Shown here: positions 28,764 to 42,414 of the stretch, piece after piece
How the letters are laid out: each line of letters begins with the position of its first letter
How positions within the stretch are numbered: position 1 is the stretch's first letter
Origin: SAR202 cluster bacterium bin87
Lineage (GTDB): Bacteria > Chloroflexota > Dehalococcoidia > Lucifugimonadales > UBA3495
DNA length: 64,000 nucleotides
NCBI GenBank assembly: GCA_002238825.1
Contig: MPNC01000002.1
Span: 611,180 to 675,179 of the forward strand
Direction of reading: 5' to 3'
The notes under the pieces: model-generated
Database searches by the model: none
Seen by the model: the letters and a program-made list of their open reading frames with translations, nothing else
What the model was told of the DNA's origin: nothing
Translations under genes and position numbers: made by a program

Positions 28764-30614
28764 ATGAATTTCCGACGAATCGGGAGACCGCAATGGTTGT
28801 TGCTGGTTAGCTGCGCAGCCTTGCTGATGGTCGGGCTGGCTTGCGGAGGAACCGCTGCGCCCACATCCAGCACCACATCAAGCCAGGCCGAGCAATCCCA
28901 ACCGGCGGCCTCCGATAGTTAGGCCGCGGCGGCTCCGACTCCCACATTCACGCCCATCCCAACTCGGGTACTTGACGCCACGCCGACCGCGATTCCTGTT
29001 CCAACCGCCGTGGCAATCGACGAACGTCCCGATTGGTGGCGCGAAGGCGAGGGCAAGCACTACCGTGGAACATTCCCGATGGTCGGCAACAGCAACCCCG
29101 GCTTCTGGGACGTCCACTACGGTGGTTCGCTCAACACCACTCTCATGCCGTCCAGCCCCCGGTTCAACCAACTGGTTGAGTACAACCCGGTCAGTCCCAC
29201 CGAGATCATCGGCGACCTTGCGACTACCTGGGACGTCAATGACGACGGCACCGAGTTCACCTTCCATCTGAACGAAGCCACTTGGTCCGACGGCCAGCCC
29301 GTCACCGCCGAGGACATCAAGTTCAGCCTGGACCGCATCACGCTGCCCGGCGCGCAACGGGCTCGCACCGGCTTCCTGCGCGCGTTCTACGAGCACCAGT
29401 CTGCAGAAGTGGTGGACGACAAGACCGTCAAGGTACCGCTGAAATTCCCCGCTCCCACCTTTATGCCCAACCTTGCTTCGGACTACATGAAGATGTACCC
29501 CAAGCACATCGCCGAAGATCTGACGCAGGAAGAGGCCAACCAGCCCGAGTCGCTGATCGGCTCCGGACCGTGGCTGTTTGGCGGGTGGCAGAAGGACGTG
29601 AGCTACACCTTCGACCGCAATCCCACGTACTTCAAGTCGGGCCGTCCTTTCTTCGACGGCATCATCGTGTACCTGATCCCTGATACCGCGCGGCGGATCG
29701 CCGCCCTTCAGGCAGGCCAGGTTCTGGGCACATTCAACCCCTTCACCGGAGTGAACCGTCCCGAAGACATGGCCATCCTGGAAGAGCAAACCGACGGCCA
29801 GATGCGCGCCCTGATCCTGCCCGACTCCGGCTTCGAGGCCTACTTCCTGAACAACGCCAAGCCGCCGTTCGACGACGAACGCGTGCGCCAGGCCTTCTAC
29901 CTCGGTCTCGACCGCGATCTTGGAATTGAGCGGGCCGTCAAGGGCTTCGGCACGCCGGGAACGTACTTCGCTCCTGGAGTTGTCGAAAGCATGGACGACC
30001 TGCGGGCCAACAACTCCGCCTTCGCCGAAGATCGCACCGCAGCGATTGAGCAAGCCAAGGCGCTGTTGGCGGAAGCCGGGTATCCGGACGGCATCAAGGT
30101 CAAGATGAACACACGCAACTCCAACCCCACGCTGCCGGCCGCCGAAGTCGCCAGTGCGCAACTGCGCCGGGACGTGGGTATCGACATCGAAATTCTCCCC
30201 AACGACCTCGCGACCACCTATGCGGTGATGCGTGACGGCACCCACGAAATCTCCACGGTGGGCACCGGTATCATCCTTCGGGATCCGGCAGACATCCTGA
30301 ACCAGTTCTACCTCCAGGACGTGCTGAGGAACCCACAAAACTGGCAGGATGACCGGATCGACGAGCTCATCGACCTCCAGAACCGCGCCATCGACCAGCG
30401 TGTCCGCCAGGATCATCTGCAAGAAATCGCCGACATCCTTCACACTGGCAAGAGCCATCTGGTGGTCTATTTCTGGGGATCCAACGGCGGAGCGCTGGAC
30501 TACCGCATCCGGAACTTCCACACTCCACCGACCCTCCAGCAGGTCCACAAGTGGGACCACGTCTGGTTTGACCCCGACCGCGAACAGCCTGCAGAATCCG
30601 GATACCAGCCGTAG
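28764..30614 (+). pseudogene. ABC binding lipoprotein 2, interrupted by one in-frame TAG
   Basis: This is a paralogue of the binding protein at 24592. The first part is intact: GGAGGG, ATG 28764, signal peptide and lipobox GLAC (Cys27), then a Ser/Gln/Thr linker. An amber codon at 28920-28922 stops it after 52 residues. The same frame then continues without a break through a Thr/Pro linker and the complete binding domain (RFNQLVEYNP, WSDGQPVTAEDI, LNQFYL) to TAG at 30612. GTG 29010 could start the domain, but without a signal peptide. The body shows no other damage, so the stop is recent, suppressed, or a sequence error. It is not UGA and no Cys is expected at this linker site, so selenocysteine does not apply. 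The operon's permeases downstream are intact. Confidence 0.85.
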
Positions 30615-30773: not shown

Positions 30774-31736
30774 ATGTACGCCTACATTGCCCGCCGCGGC
30801 CTGCTATTCATACCCACCATTCTCCTGGCAACTATCCTGGTGTTCGCGCTGTTCTGGATCGTTCCCGGAGACGCGGCCATGATGATCCTCACCGGCGAGG
30901 AAGGTGACGGCGGCAAAGTTACCCAGGCGGACCTCGACAACCTCAAGCGTGAACTCGGGTTGGACCGCCCAGTGTACATCCAGTACGGGGAATGGCTTTG
31001 GAAAATCCTGCAGGGAGACTTCGGGGACTCCGTCTGGTACGGCACTCCGGTTCTGGATGACCTGAAGGACCGGTTCTTCATCACCCTGGAACTCTCGGTG
31101 TTGGCCATAATCCTGGCCTTCATCGCTGCGGTGCCGTTGGGCGTGCTTTCAGCAGTCAAGCAGGATACGTTCCTGGACCACATCAGCCGGCTGTTGGCCC
31201 TTGTGGGCATAGCTCTGCCCACCTTCTGGCTGGGAATCCTGGTGATTTATGGGTTGACCTATTTGGCCGGGTGGCTGCCTCCTTTGGGCTATGCCACCTT
31301 GTGGGGCGATCCGTTTACCAACCTCCAGCAATTGATCTTCCCGGCGCTGGTTCTCGCCTTTCACGACATGGCATTCACGGCTCGCGTGGCCCGCTCGGCC
31401 ATGCTCGAAGTCATGCGCGAAGACTACATGAGAACCGCCCGGTCCAAGGGCCTGAACGAATGGATGGTCGTGGGGCGCCACGCGCTGAAAAACGCCCTGC
31501 TTCCGGTGATCACGGTTTCCGGCTACCAGTTCGGCCGGCTGTTGGGCGGCACCATCATCATCGAATCCATCTTCGTGATACCCGGTGTGGGCCGGTACCT
31601 GATCGACGCCATCATCCACCGCGACTTCGTCGTGGTTCAAGGTGTTGTCCTGCTCGCTGCCGCCGTGGTGTTGCTTCTTAACCTGGTCATTGACATCCTG
31701 TATGGAATACTGGACCCCAGGATCAGGTACTCGTAG
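30774..31736 (+). CDS. ABC transporter permease, DppB type, operon 2
   Basis: A 320-residue DppB/OppB-type permease, clearly paralogous to the one at 26576. It shares IPTI-L---I--WIVPGD near the N-terminus, the EAA-loop residues A-R-S-K-G-L-N with G-R-H-A-L-K-N, and the end LDPRIRYS. Six spans are predicted. GAGG precedes ATG 30774. It works with the DppC-type protein just downstream. Since the cognate binding-protein gene is broken by a stop codon, this transporter may be served by binding protein 1 or another one, or depend on suppression. Confidence 0.9.
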   Translation: MYAYIARRGLLFIPTILLATILVFALFWIVPGDAAMMILTGEEGDGGKVTQADLDNLKRELGLDRPVYIQYGEWLWKILQGDFGDSVWYGTPVLDDLKDRFFITLELSVLAIILAFIAAVPLGVLSAVKQDTFLDHISRLLALVGIALPTFWLGILVIYGLTYLAGWLPPLGYATLWGDPFTNLQQLIFPALVLAFHDMAFTARVARSAMLEVMREDYMRTARSKGLNEWMVVGRHALKNALLPVITVSGYQFGRLLGGTIIIESIFVIPGVGRYLIDAIIHRDFVVVQGVVLLAAAVVLLLNLVIDILYGILDPRIRYS

Positions 31737-31800
31737 GTTGCAGGCGTATCGGAACACCCTGCGCTTGCTGGCCAGTGTTCCGTGAGGAGTGTTCGTACTC

Positions 31801-32730
31801 ATGGCGAATCAACCCACTCAGCGCGTTGAAGTAGCGCCCCCGCCGCGCGCGGGGATGCTGCAGCCGGCCGCAGCCGGCCTCAGAGAGGTGAACCGGTTTG
31901 CGCGTCGCAAGCCCCTGGGCGCCATAGGCGGTCTCCTGGTGCTGGCGCTGGTGATCGTTGCCGTGTTGGCGCCGGTGCTTGCTCCATACGGAGCCCGCGA
32001 TCTCCCGGACAGCCGCCAGGGTGGTTCCACCGTCTACATCCCGCCCAATTCCCAGTTTCTGCTCGGCACCGATCACGTCGGGCGCGACGTTCTCAGCCGG
32101 TTGATTTACGGAGCGCGCATCAGCCTGTACGTCGGCCTGGGAAGCGTCCTCATCGGCATTACCGCCAGTTTCATCATCGGGGTGACCCTGACTTATGCCG
32201 GCGGCATCATCGACATGTCGTCTCAGCGTGTGGTCGATGCGCTCATGGCCCTGCCCGGCCTGATCATCGCGCTGGCGATTGTCGCGGTGCTCGGTTCTTC
32301 TTTGAACAACGTCATCCTCGCCATCGTCATCGGAATGATCGCTCCGGTGATCCGAACTGTGCGTTCGCAGGTTCTCTCGGTTAAAGAGCTCGACTATGTG
32401 ACGGCAGCCGTAGCGATCGGCGCGCCCCCATGGCGGATCGTTTTCCGGCATATTGTCCCCAACTGCTTGGCGATCTATCTGGTGTTGGCTACCTACTACC
32501 TGGGTTTCGCCATCATCATCGAAGCGTCTCTGTCGTTCCTCGGCGTCGGGGCTCCCCCAGACCAGCCCAGCTGGGGCGGAATGCTCACCCGGGCCGCCCA
32601 GGAGCACGTGCTGACCGCCCCGTGGGTCGGCATCTTCCCGGGCGTCGCAATCTTCGTAGTCGTGATGGGCTTCAATCTGCTGGGCGATGCCCTGCGCGAC
32701 GTGCTGGACCCCCGCCTGCGCGGACGCTAG
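31801..32730 (+). CDS. ABC transporter permease, DppC type, operon 2
   Basis: A 309-residue DppC/OppC-type permease paralogous to the one at 27568. Shared features are the RRKPLGAIGG start of TM1, the LLGTDHVGRDVLSRLIYG external loop, the EAA-type segment DYVTAAVAIGAPP and the end RDVLDPRLRGR. ATG 31801 is preferred over GTG 31789 because GAGGAG sits 10 bp before it. The stop is immediately followed (2 bp) by the TTG start of the DUF3179 selenoprotein candidate, so translation is probably coupled and the redox genes belong to this operon. Confidence 0.9.
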   Translation: MANQPTQRVEVAPPPRAGMLQPAAAGLREVNRFARRKPLGAIGGLLVLALVIVAVLAPVLAPYGARDLPDSRQGGSTVYIPPNSQFLLGTDHVGRDVLSRLIYGARISLYVGLGSVLIGITASFIIGVTLTYAGGIIDMSSQRVVDALMALPGLIIALAIVAVLGSSLNNVILAIVIGMIAPVIRTVRSQVLSVKELDYVTAAVAIGAPPWRIVFRHIVPNCLAIYLVLATYYLGFAIIIEASLSFLGVGAPPDQPSWGGMLTRAAQEHVLTAPWVGIFPGVAIFVVVMGFNLLGDALRDVLDPRLRGR

Positions 32731-32732
32731 GC

Positions 32733-34139
32733 TTGCTGACGCCAATCCGCAAACTGCTGACTGAAATCGCCGCCGGCCCGCTGTTCACGCTGGCCGGCAT
32801 AATTCTGCTGGTCTCTGTGATGCTGGCTTGCGCTCCGTCTGAAGACGCCTCCGGCAGCGAGCCATGGACGGTTCCACTGGCGGCAACCGATGCGCCCTTC
32901 CCCACGCTGCAACCCGCCGCCGACCTGCCTACCGCAGCGATGGCCGACCCAGCCAAACCGCTGCCCACCGCAGCCCTCGCGTCACCCGCCACCGCGCTGC
33001 CTGCGGCCACCTCTCTCCCGGCAGTAACCGAGGTCAACGTCCAGACAATCACCGCAGATGAGGCCGAAGAGGCCCGTACCCGCTACCAGCGCCTCCTTCG
33101 AGCGACCTGGGACACCGACTTCACGCGCACGACGATCGCCTTCGACGAGATCATGACCGGCGGGCCGCCCAAAGACGGCATCCCGTCGATCGACAACCCG
33201 CAGTTCGAATCAATTGCGGACGCTGACTTCTGGCTCGACGATCTCGAGCCCGTGCAGGTGGTCGATCTCAACGGCGATGTTCGCGCGTATCCGGTCCAGG
33301 TGATGGTGTGGCACGAACTGGTCAACGACACCGTCGGCGGCGAGCCGGTGGTCATCACCTTTTGACCACTCTGCAATACCGCCTTCGTGTACAGGCGGAC
33401 GGTTGACGGAACGATCCTCGACTTCGGTACCACCGGCGCGCTCCGCGACAGCAACCTGCTGATGTACGACCGCCAGACCGAGACGTGGTGGCAGGAAGTG
33501 GGCGGCGAGGGAGTGATCGGGCATTTCGCCGGCCGCAAGCTGGAGCAGCTCTACCTGTCCATTGTGTCGTGGGGAGATTTCAAAGCGGCCCACCCTGAAG
33601 GGCAGGTGCTTTCCCGACCCGACTCCGGTCGCGCCTACGGCAGTAACCCCTACGCCGGATACGACCGTCCGGGCAGCCAACCGTTCCTGTTCCGTGGCGA
33701 GGAAGACCCTCGCTTGCCGGCAGTGGAGCGGGTAGTGGCGGTGGAGCGCGGCAACGAAGCCTGGGCCGTGTCCTTCACGACGCTGGCCGAGGAGCGCGTG
33801 GTCACTACATCAGTTGCCGGCGAGGACATTGTGGTGTTCTGGTCACCGGGAACCGCGTCCGCGCTGGATTCCGGATCGATATCCCGGGGACGGGATGTGG
33901 GCACCGCCGGCATATTCTCGCCTCAGGGTCCCGACGGCAACTCGCTGACCTTCGCGCCGGACGCGGAAGGCCGCATCGTAGACCAACAGACCAGCAGCCA
34001 GTGGGACATATTCGGCCGCGCGGTAGACGGACCGCTGGAGGGCGCGAAATTGACCCCGGTGCCGGGCCGCATCGGCCAACTGTGGTTCTCCTGGGCAGTG
34101 TACCGGCCGGATACCGTCGTGTATCCCGCCACCGGCTGA
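32733..34139 (+). CDS. DUF3179 lipoprotein with in-frame UGA (selenoprotein candidate)
   Basis: A 468-residue reading frame of the DUF3179 family if UGA at 33363-33365 is read as selenocysteine (residue 211). The N-terminus has a lipoprotein signal peptide (lipobox MLAC, Cys33) and a Pro/Ala/Thr linker. Before the UGA the frame reads GGEPVVITF; after it, PLCNTAFVYRRTVDG. The family has a conserved C-P-L-C at this place, so the codon falls on the first Cys and gives U-P-L-C (Cys214). The downstream half matches the family: GVIGHFAGRKLEQL, then SWGDFKAAHPEG, then YGSNPYAGYD. A hairpin suited to a bacterial SECIS follows at 33379-33398. The start is TTG 32733, 2 bp after the ABC permease stop; the redoxin gene follows after 9 bp. 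The protein would be extracytoplasmic, membrane-anchored and redox-active. DUF3179 function is unknown. Confidence 0.85.
33379..33398 (+). promoter_or_regulatory. Predicted SECIS hairpin of the DUF3179 gene
   Basis: CCGCCT (33379-33384) pairs perfectly with AGGCGG (33393-33398); the 8-nt loop TCGTGTAC contains G. The loop begins 19 nt after the UGA, within the range known for bacterial SECIS elements, which lie inside the coding region just downstream of the Sec codon. Confidence 0.65.
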
Positions 34140-34148
34140 GCTACCGGC

Positions 34149-34862
34149 ATGGCGCGGCTTTGCTCGGTCATCGTGACCTTTGCCGTGGCGGTCGCCCTCT
34201 GCCTCGCAATGGTGGGTTGCCAGACACCGACCAACGACCCAGGCGCCGGCGACGCCCAGGCCGATCCGCCCAACATCGAGGCCACCGTGTCGGCCGCGCT
34301 GCGGTCCCTGGAAGAGACGCAGCCGGCGTCCTCAGTCGGTGGTACAAACCCAGCCTCCATGTCCCCGCCGTCTGCGGCGTCTGCCGCGACACCCGCCCTG
34401 CAACCGACGGCGCGGCTCCGGTCTGCGTCCGACGGAGCCGCGCAACGCCCGACGGCGCCAATGTTCGCGGGGACCTTCATGGACGGCAACGACTATCAGC
34501 TCGAGGACACCGTGGGCACCCCGACGTTGTTGATGTTCTGGGCTCCCTGGTGACCGCATTGCCAGCGGCAGTTGCCGGCTGTCCAGGGTTTCCACGAGGA
34601 GTACCACGGCGTCGACGCCGACATAGTGGGGATTGCCATCAGCGCTCCCGAGCCGGAGGTCCGCGCACTGATGGATAAACAGGGCCTGACCTTCCCGATC
34701 GCCCACGACCCGGACGGGCAACTCGCCACCGTATACGGCGTCTCCGGCGTGCCCTTCTACATCTTCATCGACAAGGCCGGTCGGGTCGCCCACACCATCC
34801 CCGGGGCACCGACCGACGTGAACACGATCCGGGGTTGGATCGAAGACCTGAAGGCGGAATAG
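34149..34862 (+). CDS. TlpA-like redoxin lipoprotein with in-frame UGA (selenoprotein candidate)
   Basis: A 237-residue thioredoxin-fold protein if UGA 34551-34553 is selenocysteine (residue 135). The N-terminus is a lipoprotein signal peptide (MVGC, Cys24) and a long Ala/Ser/Pro linker. The thioredoxin-like domain starts near 105. The active site reads FWAPW-U-PHCQRQLPAVQ, so UGA replaces the first (attacking) Cys of the W-C-x-x-C motif and Cys138 is the resolving partner. The later cis-Pro region GVSGVPFYIFIDKAGRV is intact, and the chain ends in a normal C-terminal helix. Without read-through the gene would give only a linker and a second ORF with no start signal. A hairpin lies at 34563-34581. 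The gene follows DUF3179 by 9 bp, so the two redox proteins are probably partners outside the membrane, for example in thiol-disulfide or peroxide chemistry. Confidence 0.88.
34563..34581 (+). promoter_or_regulatory. Predicted SECIS hairpin of the redoxin gene
   Basis: CAGCGGC (34563-34569) pairs with GCC, one bulged G, then GCTG (34574-34581). The apical loop AGTT has G in its second place and begins 16 nt after the UGA, the same distance as in the BtuF-like gene. Confidence 0.65.
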
Positions 34863-34960: not shown

Positions 34961-36028
34961 TTAACCCCGCCAGATCCGACGCATGCGGCGCACGGAGTCC
35001 AGGCGAGACTCCGCCAGGAGATCCGCCGCCTGCGCCGTGGATATCTCCTGCTTCCGCGACGTGGTCAGCACCGCCGACATCTGCTCGTAGATCCGCTCCG
35101 TCTGCTGGCGCGAACGATCGGGGTTGTACGGCTGGCCGATCTCGGCGGCGGCGTTGATGATGCCGCCGGCGTTGATCAGGAAATCGGGGGCATAGACGAT
35201 CCCCCGGCGATGCAGCTCCTCGCCGTCTTCCGCTGTCATCAGCTGGTTGTTGGCCCCGCCGGCCACGATCTGACAGCGCAGGCGGTCGATGGTGGCCGAG
35301 TTGATGACCCCGCCCAGCGCGCATGGAGCGAAAATATCGCAGTCCACGTCGTAGATCTCATCGGGTCCGACGACCTTGACGCCCATCTGGCGGGCCCGGT
35401 CAAGCGCCGCCTCGCTGATATCCGTGACCACGATGCGAACGTCGTCCTCGATCAGATGACCCGCGGTGTGCGTGGCCACCTTTCCGAACCCCTGCATCGC
35501 AACGGTGCGCCCGCGCAGATCGTCCCTGCCCCAAACGTCGGAGGCGCAGGCCTTCATGCCCATGTAGATCCCGAGGCCGGTCATAACGGAAGTGTCGCCG
35601 CTGCCGCCCAGGGTGACGTCGAGTCCCACCACATGCTCGGTTTCCTGGCGCACGGCCTCCAGGTCCCGCCCGGTGGTGCCAACGTCGGTGGTGGTCAGGT
35701 AGCGGCCCCCCAGCGTGTCCACGAACCGACCCCAGGCGCGCATCAGGGATTCGGTCTTGGCGGTGCGGGGGTCGCCGATGATGACGCCCTTGCCGCCGCC
35801 GAGGTGCAGGCCGGCCGCCGCCGATTTGTATGTCATGGCCCGGGACAGGTTCAGGGCGTCGGCAAGCGCTTCCTGTTCGGTGGCGTAGGGCCACATGCGG
35901 GTTCCGCCGCAAGACGGCCCCAGGGTGGTGTCGTGGATGGCGATGATGCCCCGCAGGCCGGATTCAGGGTCGTTGTACATCGTCACCTGTTCGTGACCGC
36001 GGCTGGCCATCGTATTCAGTACGTCCAT
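34961..36028 (-). CDS. Leu/Glu/Phe/Val dehydrogenase family enzyme
   Basis: A 355-residue NAD(P)-dependent amino-acid dehydrogenase. The catalytic glycine-rich loop with active Lys is LHLGGGKGVIIGDP near residue 85, and an earlier Lys (TYKSAAAG) is also family-conserved. The Rossmann domain follows with AMQGFGKVATHTA near 180 and the late APCALGGVIN and GGANNQL segments. The length fits leucine/phenylalanine dehydrogenases better than the 420-450 residue glutamate dehydrogenases. ATG 36028 is selected by GGAGGTGG upstream; an earlier in-frame ATG (36061) lacks a site. TATAAT at 36065-36070 on the minus strand is a possible -10. It deaminates a branched or aromatic amino acid reversibly; branched-chain preference is inferred only. 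Confidence 0.87.
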   Translation of the reverse strand: MDVLNTMASRGHEQVTMYNDPESGLRGIIAIHDTTLGPSCGGTRMWPYATEQEALADALNLSRAMTYKSAAAGLHLGGGKGVIIGDPRTAKTESLMRAWGRFVDTLGGRYLTTTDVGTTGRDLEAVRQETEHVVGLDVTLGGSGDTSVMTGLGIYMGMKACASDVWGRDDLRGRTVAMQGFGKVATHTAGHLIEDDVRIVVTDISEAALDRARQMGVKVVGPDEIYDVDCDIFAPCALGGVINSATIDRLRCQIVAGGANNQLMTAEDGEELHRRGIVYAPDFLINAGGIINAAAEIGQPYNPDRSRQQTERIYEQMSAVLTTSRKQEISTAQAADLLAESRLDSVRRMRRIWRG

Positions 36029-36061
36029 GCTTTCCACCTCCTGCGAATATCCTCCGCTCAA

Positions 36062-40086: not shown

Positions 40087-42414
40087 ATGCCTCAATCGAC
40101 CGAAAACACCCTCGTTCTCGCCGTTGGCGGGATGACGTGCGCCGCGTGCGTGTACCATGTCGGCGAGGCGCTGCGCTCCGTTGACGGGGTGACCGAGGTC
40201 AGTATCAACCTCGCCACCGAGCGGGCGACGATCAGCCTGGACGACGGCGATGCCGCCGGTACGCCTGACCTGGAGACATTGGCCAGGGCCGTCGCCGACG
40301 CCGGATACCGTCTCGATACCAACCCTCAATCGGCGGCTGACGGCAGCGGAAGTGATGGGCCGCGGGCGCGGGAGGAAAAACGCGTCCGGGTCCGGTTCAT
40401 CTTCGCAGCCCTGAGCGGGGGCGCGCTGCTGCTCGGTAGCTTCCCCGCGCTGCCCTGGGTCCCCGCACTGTTCGCGATGGGGTGGTGGTATCCGGTACTG
40501 TTATGGGCAGTAGCCACCCCGGTGCAGTTCTGGGCCGGCTGGTCGTTCTACTCTGCCGGCTGGGCCGGTCTGCGGCGGTTGCAGCCCAACATGCACACGC
40601 TGATCGCCCTGGGCACGTCGGTGGCGTACGGGTACAGCGTCGTTGTTATCGTTTTGACGCTGCTATCCCCGGGCGCGCTGGGTTCGCCGGGAGCGCACCA
40701 ACTGCACTTCGACATGACGGCCATAATCGTCGCGCTGATTCTGTTGGGACGCTGGCTGGAAGCGCGCGCGCTGTCCCGCACTTCGGGCGCCATCGAAAGG
40801 CTGTTGGATCTGCGGCCCCAAACGGCGCACCTCATGGCCGCGGACGGCTCCATATCGGATGTGCCAATTGATCAGGTTGAAACCGGTGACACCCTGGCGG
40901 TTCGCCCCGGCGAGCAGATCCCGACTGACGGCGATGTGACCAGCGGCGCAACGATCGTCGACCAGTCAGCGGTGACCGGCGAGAGTATTCCCGCCGAAAA
41001 ATCAGTCGGTGATTCCGTTTTTGCCGGCACCCTGAACGAAACCGGAGCCGTACTCATCCGCGCCACCCGCGTCGGCGCGGACACGACACTGGCCCAGGTG
41101 ATACGGCTTGTGGAAGAAGCCCAGGGCTCGGCGGCGCCGGTACAGCGACTGGCCGATCGGGTCGCGGCCTGGTTCGTGCCGGCGGTGGGTCTGATCGCGC
41201 TGGCGGCGGCGGTGCTCTGGCTGTTCCTCGGGCCGGACCCGTCGGTGCGGTACGCGATGCTGACCCTGGTTGCGGTGTTCATCATCGCGTGCCCGTGCGC
41301 ACTGGGGTTGGCAACTCCCACCGCAATCATCGTGGGCGTGGGCAGAAGCGCGGAGCGAGGCATTCTGATCCGCAGCGCCGCCGCGTTGGAAACCGCCCAC
41401 CGCGTGGACGTGGTTGCCCTCGACAAAACCGGAACCCTCACCACCGGTCAACCGGAGGTCACGGAGACCGTGGCCGCCTCGGGCGTCTCATCTACCGACG
41501 TGCTGCGATACGCCGCCTCGGTTGAGACCCTGTCGGAACACCCCATCGGTCGGGCCGTGCTGCGTCGGGCTCAATCCGAAGGTCTGGTGGTCACGCCGTC
41601 CACGGATTTCGTTGCCCACGTCGGCGCCGGTGTCACGGCCGTGATGGCTGAGGAAGGAATAGCGGTCGGCAACGCCGCACTGATGGAGAAGGTCGGCGCG
41701 TCGCCGGACGCCGAGCTTACCGCGGCGGCAACACGGCTGGCGGAGAGCGGCAACACGCCCATGTTCGTAGCCCGGGGCGGTCTTGTTGTCGGCGTGATCG
41801 CAGTCGCCGACACGGTAAAGCCCGGGGCGCTCGCGGCGGTGGCGGCTCTGCATGCGATGGGTGTCCGGACGGTGATGCTCTCCGGAGATCGCCCGGAGGT
41901 GGCAGCGGCGGTGGCTGCAGAGTGCGATATCGACGATTACCACGCCGGCATGATGCCGGCCGACAAAGCGGATGCCATTGCCAGGATGCAGGATGAAGGC
42001 CACACCGTGGCCATGGTGGGCGACGGGATCAATGACGCACCGGCGCTGGCCCGGGCCAACGTCGGTGTGGCCATGGGCGGCGGGACCGACATCGCCCGGG
42101 AAACTGCGGACGTCACGCTGATGCGGGACGAACTCATGGGCGTGGCTACCGCCCTGAGGATGTCTCGCAACACGATGCGCACCATCCGGCAGAACCTGTT
42201 CTGGGCCTTCTTCTACAACACGTTGCTGATCCCGGTGGCCGCGGGGGCGCTGTATCCGGTGTTCGCCGCGCTGGGGGGCGTGCCGGGCGGGCTGGCGTTT
42301 TTCTTCGGCGATGCCGGGTTCCTCAATCCCATCCTGGCGGCCCTGGCCATGGCTTTCAGCTCAGTCAGCGTGGTGAGCAACTCGCTGCGGCTGCGACGGG
42401 CCAACCTGGAGTGA
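40087..42414 (+). CDS. copA: Copper-type P1B ATPase (CopA-like)
   Basis: A 775-residue heavy-metal P-type ATPase. The N-terminal HMA domain has GMTCAAC (Cys18/Cys21). Membrane helices follow, then the actuator domain with the TGES loop (VTGES). The intramembrane metal site CPC is at Cys402/Cys404, the phosphorylated Asp in DKTGT is Asp446, the soft-metal SEHPIG motif comes after it, and GDGINDAPAL is in the hinge. CPC plus a single GMTCxxC HMA domain indicates Cu(I) export from the cytoplasm. No clear ribosome site is seen before the ATG. A small YHS protein gene follows 90 bp downstream and probably supports metal handling. No copper regulator is adjacent. Confidence 0.92.
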   Translation: MPQSTENTLVLAVGGMTCAACVYHVGEALRSVDGVTEVSINLATERATISLDDGDAAGTPDLETLARAVADAGYRLDTNPQSAADGSGSDGPRAREEKRVRVRFIFAALSGGALLLGSFPALPWVPALFAMGWWYPVLLWAVATPVQFWAGWSFYSAGWAGLRRLQPNMHTLIALGTSVAYGYSVVVIVLTLLSPGALGSPGAHQLHFDMTAIIVALILLGRWLEARALSRTSGAIERLLDLRPQTAHLMAADGSISDVPIDQVETGDTLAVRPGEQIPTDGDVTSGATIVDQSAVTGESIPAEKSVGDSVFAGTLNETGAVLIRATRVGADTTLAQVIRLVEEAQGSAAPVQRLADRVAAWFVPAVGLIALAAAVLWLFLGPDPSVRYAMLTLVAVFIIACPCALGLATPTAIIVGVGRSAERGILIRSAAALETAHRVDVVALDKTGTLTTGQPEVTETVAASGVSSTDVLRYAASVETLSEHPIGRAVLRRAQSEGLVVTPSTDFVAHVGAGVTAVMAEEGIAVGNAALMEKVGASPDAELTAAATRLAESGNTPMFVARGGLVVGVIAVADTVKPGALAAVAALHAMGVRTVMLSGDRPEVAAAVAAECDIDDYHAGMMPADKADAIARMQDEGHTVAMVGDGINDAPALARANVGVAMGGGTDIARETADVTLMRDELMGVATALRMSRNTMRTIRQNLFWAFFYNTLLIPVAAGALYPVFAALGGVPGGLAFFFGDAGFLNPILAALAMAFSSVSVVSNSLRLRRANLE

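Follow-up and report, generated by a model that had tools for sequence, protein, structure and literature searches.

A redoxin gene directly downstream of a DUF3179 gene

The window (the whole stretch of 64,000 nucleotides analyzed here, from SAR202 cluster bacterium bin87) carries on its forward strand a TlpA/ResA-like redoxin gene at positions 34149 to 34862, which runs from an ATG start to a TAG stop, encodes 237 amino acids, and contains exactly one in-frame TGA. This codon (codon 135; 34551 to 34553, forward strand) lies in the motif FWAPW-U-PHC, at the N-terminal active-site position, where the homologues have an aligned Cys; the gene thus agrees with the earlier note, which had described a TlpA-like redoxin with selenocysteine (Sec) at the attacking Cys. 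The product consists of a lipoprotein-type N terminus, a linker rich in Pro, Ala, and Ser, and a thioredoxin-fold domain at about residues 100 to 237, and its Pfam match (AhpC-TSA, 82 bits; Redoxin, 77 bits) spans the TGA.

The ORF coordinates also confirm the reported 9-bp spacing between the redoxin start and the TGA stop (34137 to 34139) of the preceding gene, a DUF3179 gene at 32733 to 34139 on the same strand, which itself begins with TTG 2 nt past the stop of a permease gene. Its match to Pfam DUF3179 (326 bits) spans another in-frame TGA (33363 to 33365, forward strand), which occupies the first position of a UPLC motif (ITF-U-PLCNTAF), such that the two adjacent genes do both contain UxxC, UPHC in the redoxin and UPLC in DUF3179.

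Two Opp/Nik-type ABC permease genes (30774 to 32730, forward strand) lie directly upstream of DUF3179 in the same operon-like run, and the block through DUF3179, permeases included, is colinear in two close relatives (L128 and L129) and largely colinear in two others (L130 and L131). Farther upstream, an Opp/Nik-type substrate-binding lipoprotein gene (28764 to 30614) has an in-frame TAG in its linker (28920 to 28922) that is a sense codon in L128 and L129; the TAG may be an error or mark a broken gene. On the other side, a Glu/Leu/Trp-dehydrogenase-like gene (34961 to 36061, reverse strand; it scores 356 bits with the ScyB model, whose cutoff is 600) faces the redoxin gene, and close relatives differ in the sequence that separates this gene from DUF3179. 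An Rfam scan of the window found no family.

Both proteins are of kinds already on record. A TlpA-like (cd02966) thiol-disulfide isomerase-like UxxC selenoprotein is listed in PMC13188914, a Redoxin family UxxC selenoprotein in PMC9312934 and PMC13188914, and DUF3179 UxxC/T in both, so the redoxin belongs to a known selenoprotein type (its likeness, a TlpA-like fold with Sec first in UxxC, is to the listing and not to individual sequences) and the upstream gene is a member of the DUF3179 family. The entries for cd02966 and Redoxin in these two listings say nothing of a DUF3179 neighbor, nor do their passages on DUF3179 mention adjacency to a Sec-containing TlpA-like gene.

Decoding of UGA as selenocysteine

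The genome to which the window belongs (G000; 4.96 Mb) encodes SelA (544 bits), SelB (353 bits), SelD (373 bits), and a tRNA-Sec (66 bits) with the anticodon tca (UCA). The TGA at codon 135 recurs in the ortholog of L128 and in all five orthologs of a paralogous redoxin, which is more than chance would produce, and the assemblies that share it are independent and differ by approximately 0.6 to 1.4 synonymous changes per site. Past the UGA, the reading frame is under purifying selection, with a Ka/Ks of 0.18 for the window copy (copy A) against that of L128 and of 0.08 to 0.13 for pairs of related genomes in the paralog (copy B); from the corresponding DUF3179 comparisons, we omitted the G000/G295 pair, in which the stretch overran the TGA stop.

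These observations strongly support, at the level of comparative sequence evidence, the reading of UGA135 as Sec. A sequencing error at the TGA, or a redoxin pseudogene, for which there is little to cite beyond the codon itself and the unexplained TAG in the nearby transporter gene, is hardly credible given the conservation across independent assemblies and the selection downstream. Genome-wide reassignment of TGA (e.g., to Trp or Gly) would account for in-frame TGA codons in several genes but is similarly far-fetched: TGA serves as an ordinary stop in DUF3179 and in the gene at 40087 to 42414 and is thus not reassigned throughout the genome, the in-frame sites align with Cys and are followed by hairpins, and the Sec machinery is complete.

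A SECIS-like hairpin, CAGC-GGC-AGTT-GCC-g-GCTG, occurs downstream of the Sec135 TGA (34563 to 34581, forward strand), and another, CCGCCT-TCGTGTAC-AGGCGG, downstream of the TGA in DUF3179 (33379 to 33398, forward strand). We compared 13 distinct Sec redoxin sites with 41 Cys homologs: a complete stem of 6 bp closing a loop of five bases, at constant spacing from the UGA, is present in 8 of the 13 and in none of the 41. The Sec paralogs have this 6-bp stem, with an AGUUG loop, in the same place as the window hairpin, whereas the window copy and that of L128 have a shifted hairpin with a four-base loop, imperfect in the window, where the stem also contains one bulge. At the second stem position, all 13 Sec redoxins have a G-C, C-G, or T-A pair, i.e., compensatory combinations, and 12 of them have TTG as the loop codon and the other has TTA, as opposed to ATG in 37 of the 41 Cys genes; TTG makes up only about one-tenth of the Leu codons in the genes of the window. 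Compared with synonymous-codon shuffles, the redoxin hairpins are no more stable (mean z of −0.3 across 21 motif hits, which include spurious ones), and those of Sec-containing DUF3179 genes are more stable on average (mean z of −1.7; 29 sites). Support for a SECIS-like role of the redoxin hairpin comes from covariation and codon choice, stability by itself being not significant.

A strong SelB match is present in 20 of the 24 other genomes with a listed UGA-containing DUF3179, versus 198 of 294 genomes over the cutoff in the class; the four lacking one are incomplete assemblies, and this co-occurrence is weakly informative. Overall, the two genes add well-supported selenoproteins to the uncultured Chloroflexota, ones that standard annotation would truncate at the UGA.

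Several other genes of G000 relate to selenium. Two adjacent Sec redoxins of a different clade (L006; G000:C16:25164-28649) have the motifs YFATW-U-PVC and WFATW-U-PEC, on a contig that also carries SelA, and a peroxiredoxin-like ORF (L007; G000:C32:557568-557900) with FYRGLW-U-PYC and a strong hairpin past the UGA is likely a selenoprotein. SelD (L232; G000:C42:681408-682328), with one in-frame TGA, is probably one as well, and a Cys-type thioredoxin gene (WCGPC; L008/L009, G000:C28:58944-59654) ends just ahead of the tRNA-Sec gene.

Fold, family, and anchoring of the two proteins

AlphaFold2 predicts a thioredoxin fold for the redoxin (pLDDT of 90.6 for the best model, with the five models ranging from 56 to 91), and the best PDB matches to this model are to ResA (TM score of 0.90). 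The active-site helix (37 to 53) comes right after model residue 36, placing Sec at the helix start, and a Pro, the candidate cis-Pro opposite the active site, is invariant in the redoxin alignment (GVPF in the window). The redoxin scores below the NCBIfam cutoffs of three related families, with 86.1 bits against 170 for ResA (PRK03147), 63.5 against 210 for StoA, and 49.8 against 300 for the WAxxUGC family (NF041054); we therefore file the protein as TlpA/ResA-like rather than as ResA. With ResA, StoA, and TlpA it shares the fold, an active site placed where a helix begins, the conserved Pro loop, and a predicted membrane anchor, but it differs in having Sec for the first Cys, the dipeptide of UPHC, and a lipoprotein-type anchor followed by a long linker. 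NF041054 likewise comprises ResA-like selenoproteins but is distinguished by its motif, UGC in place of UPHC.

Both proteins had been considered lipoproteins, and extracytoplasmic anchoring is likely. The N terminus of the redoxin is hydrophobic and contains a Cys, in the manner of lipoproteins, and its relatives have canonical lipoboxes (ISGC in the ortholog of L128 and LIGC in the paralog L002), but the window copies are weaker, MVGC before Q in the redoxin and MLAC before A in DUF3179, each with Met at −3. From these features we infer that the redoxin is exported and held by a lipid anchor at the outward-facing side of the membrane.

The DUF3179 protein, modeled from window positions 33114 to 34124 (pLDDT of 96), is an internal duplication of two repeats (profile match with 99.3% probability), only the first of which contains the C/UPLC motif; the invariant His67 and Glu68 are close to this motif in the sequence. 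In structural comparisons, Rieske-type domains rank first for both repeats (highest Z, 7.4, across some 94 residues), with Foldseek E values of 0.07 or worse, which are not significant. Neither the Pfam scan nor the profile comparison supports a Rieske relationship, and a search of the DUF3179 sequence against the sequences of solved structures found nothing. The CxH...CxxH cluster ligands of Rieske proteins are absent, the invariant [C/U]PLC being present without a second CxxH. The Rieske-like fold, a middling structural match, may be taken as a lead only.

Association of the redoxin with DUF3179

In the four close relatives (L128 to L131) identified by scanning genome contigs with a DUF3179 alignment, DUF3179 is 82 to 93% identical to that of the window and always contains UPLC, such that the Sec-containing DUF3179 is kept in all five close genomes, the genome of the window included. 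A redoxin beside it is found in only two of the five, G000 and G294: among the four relatives, L128 alone (OX638345.1, Dehalococcoidia) has a downstream redoxin, with the motif UPHC. The unlinked Sec paralog, copy B, is present in all five. In the tree, copies A and B form one clade, with copy A outside all copies B, which, if rates are equal, favors an older duplication and later loss of copy A from three close genomes over its gain in G000 and G294.

Beyond these close relatives, 80 DUF3179 loci from several phyla (419 kb of flanking sequence) include 11 TlpA-like genes within 3 kb, 10 of them on the same strand, and a control of 84 kb around unrelated loci in the genome of the window contains none. 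A class-wide search yields from about one to a few TlpA-like matches per 2- to 3-Mb genome, so that at most 1 to 2 such neighbors would be expected where 11 were observed. The class sample contributes further neighbors (e.g., the Cys/Cys pairs L040, L046, L055, and L115), and the redoxins linked to DUF3179 are scattered over several clades of the tree. A check of co-occurrence, proposed in the earlier note, gives a divided answer: the DUF3179/TlpA-like neighborhood recurs elsewhere, and of the five close genomes just two have the genes linked.

Most DUF3179/TlpA-like pairs are Cys/Cys. Sec/Sec pairs occur in the window and in L128 and also in L101 and L102, where the genes are on opposite strands and 1 to 2.4 kb apart. 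Sec DUF3179 is accompanied by a Cys redoxin in L088 and L151, as well as in L089 and L090, where roughly 1 kb separates the genes, and the converse, Cys DUF3179 with a Sec redoxin 1.6 kb away, is found in L150. Because mixed pairs of either kind exist, the two genes do not strictly switch together, and the idea that they change jointly between Cys and Sec is rejected.

We consider it probable that the redoxin is a Sec-containing, anchored ResA/TlpA-like protein, decoded with the guidance of its hairpin, for which DUF3179 is the likeliest single client or partner. SelB and tRNA-Sec, both encoded in the genome, would decode UGA135 under the direction of the hairpin just downstream, and the product would be exported and anchored outside the cytoplasm. 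There, as in its family, Sec135, placed at the N-terminal end of the active-site helix, would carry out the attack on a client disulfide or another oxidized sulfur or selenium site, and Cys138, assigned by analogy as the resolving residue, would then break the mixed selenenyl-sulfide. By general selenium chemistry, Sec as the attacking residue would make thiol-disulfide exchange faster. The operon position and the recurrent neighborhood point to the adjacent DUF3179 selenoprotein as the likeliest single client or partner in this host, and the neighborhood lends some weight to a functional link.

Two or more adjacent selenoprotein genes, a layout that points to a shared pathway, are on record in multi-selenoprotein operons (grdA-grdB, prdB-prdC, SAO, and Tso; PMC13188914), but those on record there are of other families, and among the five close genomes just two have the arrangement seen in the window. 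A dedicated extracytoplasmic selenium redox pair, as put forward in the earlier note, is plausible: tight adjacency and the recurrent neighborhood speak for it, and the linkage in two of five genomes, the mixed Sec/Cys pairs, and the unlinked Sec paralog in all five speak against. Genomically, neither gene is dependent on the other.

The strongest competing explanation, to which we assign a chance not far short of even, is that the redoxin acts independently of DUF3179, belonging to a set of several Sec redoxins that serve general clients outside the cytoplasm, and came to lie beside it by accident at a labile insertion site. A dehydrogenase gene follows DUF3179 almost directly in L129 and L130, and a different gene occupies that spot in L131; copy B, which is sister to copy A, lies apart from DUF3179 in all five genomes. 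Against this explanation, TlpA-like genes adjoin DUF3179 across several phyla, mostly in the same orientation, and the redoxins involved come from several distinct clades.

Considerably less likely is a DsbA-like thiol oxidase in an oxidizing pathway. UPHC has the dipeptide of the DsbA motif CPHC and occurs in all seven members of the clade of the window redoxin, and the solved ResA structures include a CPHC variant (3c71); the model, however, is ResA-like in fold and lacks the helical insertion that DsbA would have, and Sec is not known to be needed for oxidase function. An oxidase would also be in keeping with the electron supply: G000 contains no match to DsbD_TM/CcdA (PF02683), which is present in 10 of 14 control genomes, so the usual outward supply of electrons is not evident, within a search that covered PF02683 only; this counts as well against the preferred reading.

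Under the preferred reading, in which DUF3179 is the partner of the redoxin, a widespread family without known function gains a candidate redox partner, and, should the pair be real, DUF3179 could be tested as an extracytoplasmic thiol/selenol redox enzyme. The part most worth following is the recurrent DUF3179/TlpA-like neighborhood. It could, speculatively and with rather low probability, reflect a widespread extracytoplasmic module in which either partner may take Sec independently, DUF3179 being a tandem-repeat protein of Rieske-like fold without the iron-sulfur ligands, whose C/UPLC redox or metal site is serviced by the redoxin, with both partners selenium based in this lineage.

DUF3179 itself occurs further in G000 and in the class. 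A second DUF3179 selenoprotein of G000 (L026/L125; C65:43621-44544, reverse strand) has the motif LVY-U-TLCGTG and no adjacent redoxin, and a third copy (L027; C21:1247) contains Cys and looks interrupted. Among the DUF3179 matches listed for genomes of the class, at least 25 (L088 to L112) have one TGA, and at nearly all sites read it occupies the first position of [C/U][P/T]LC.
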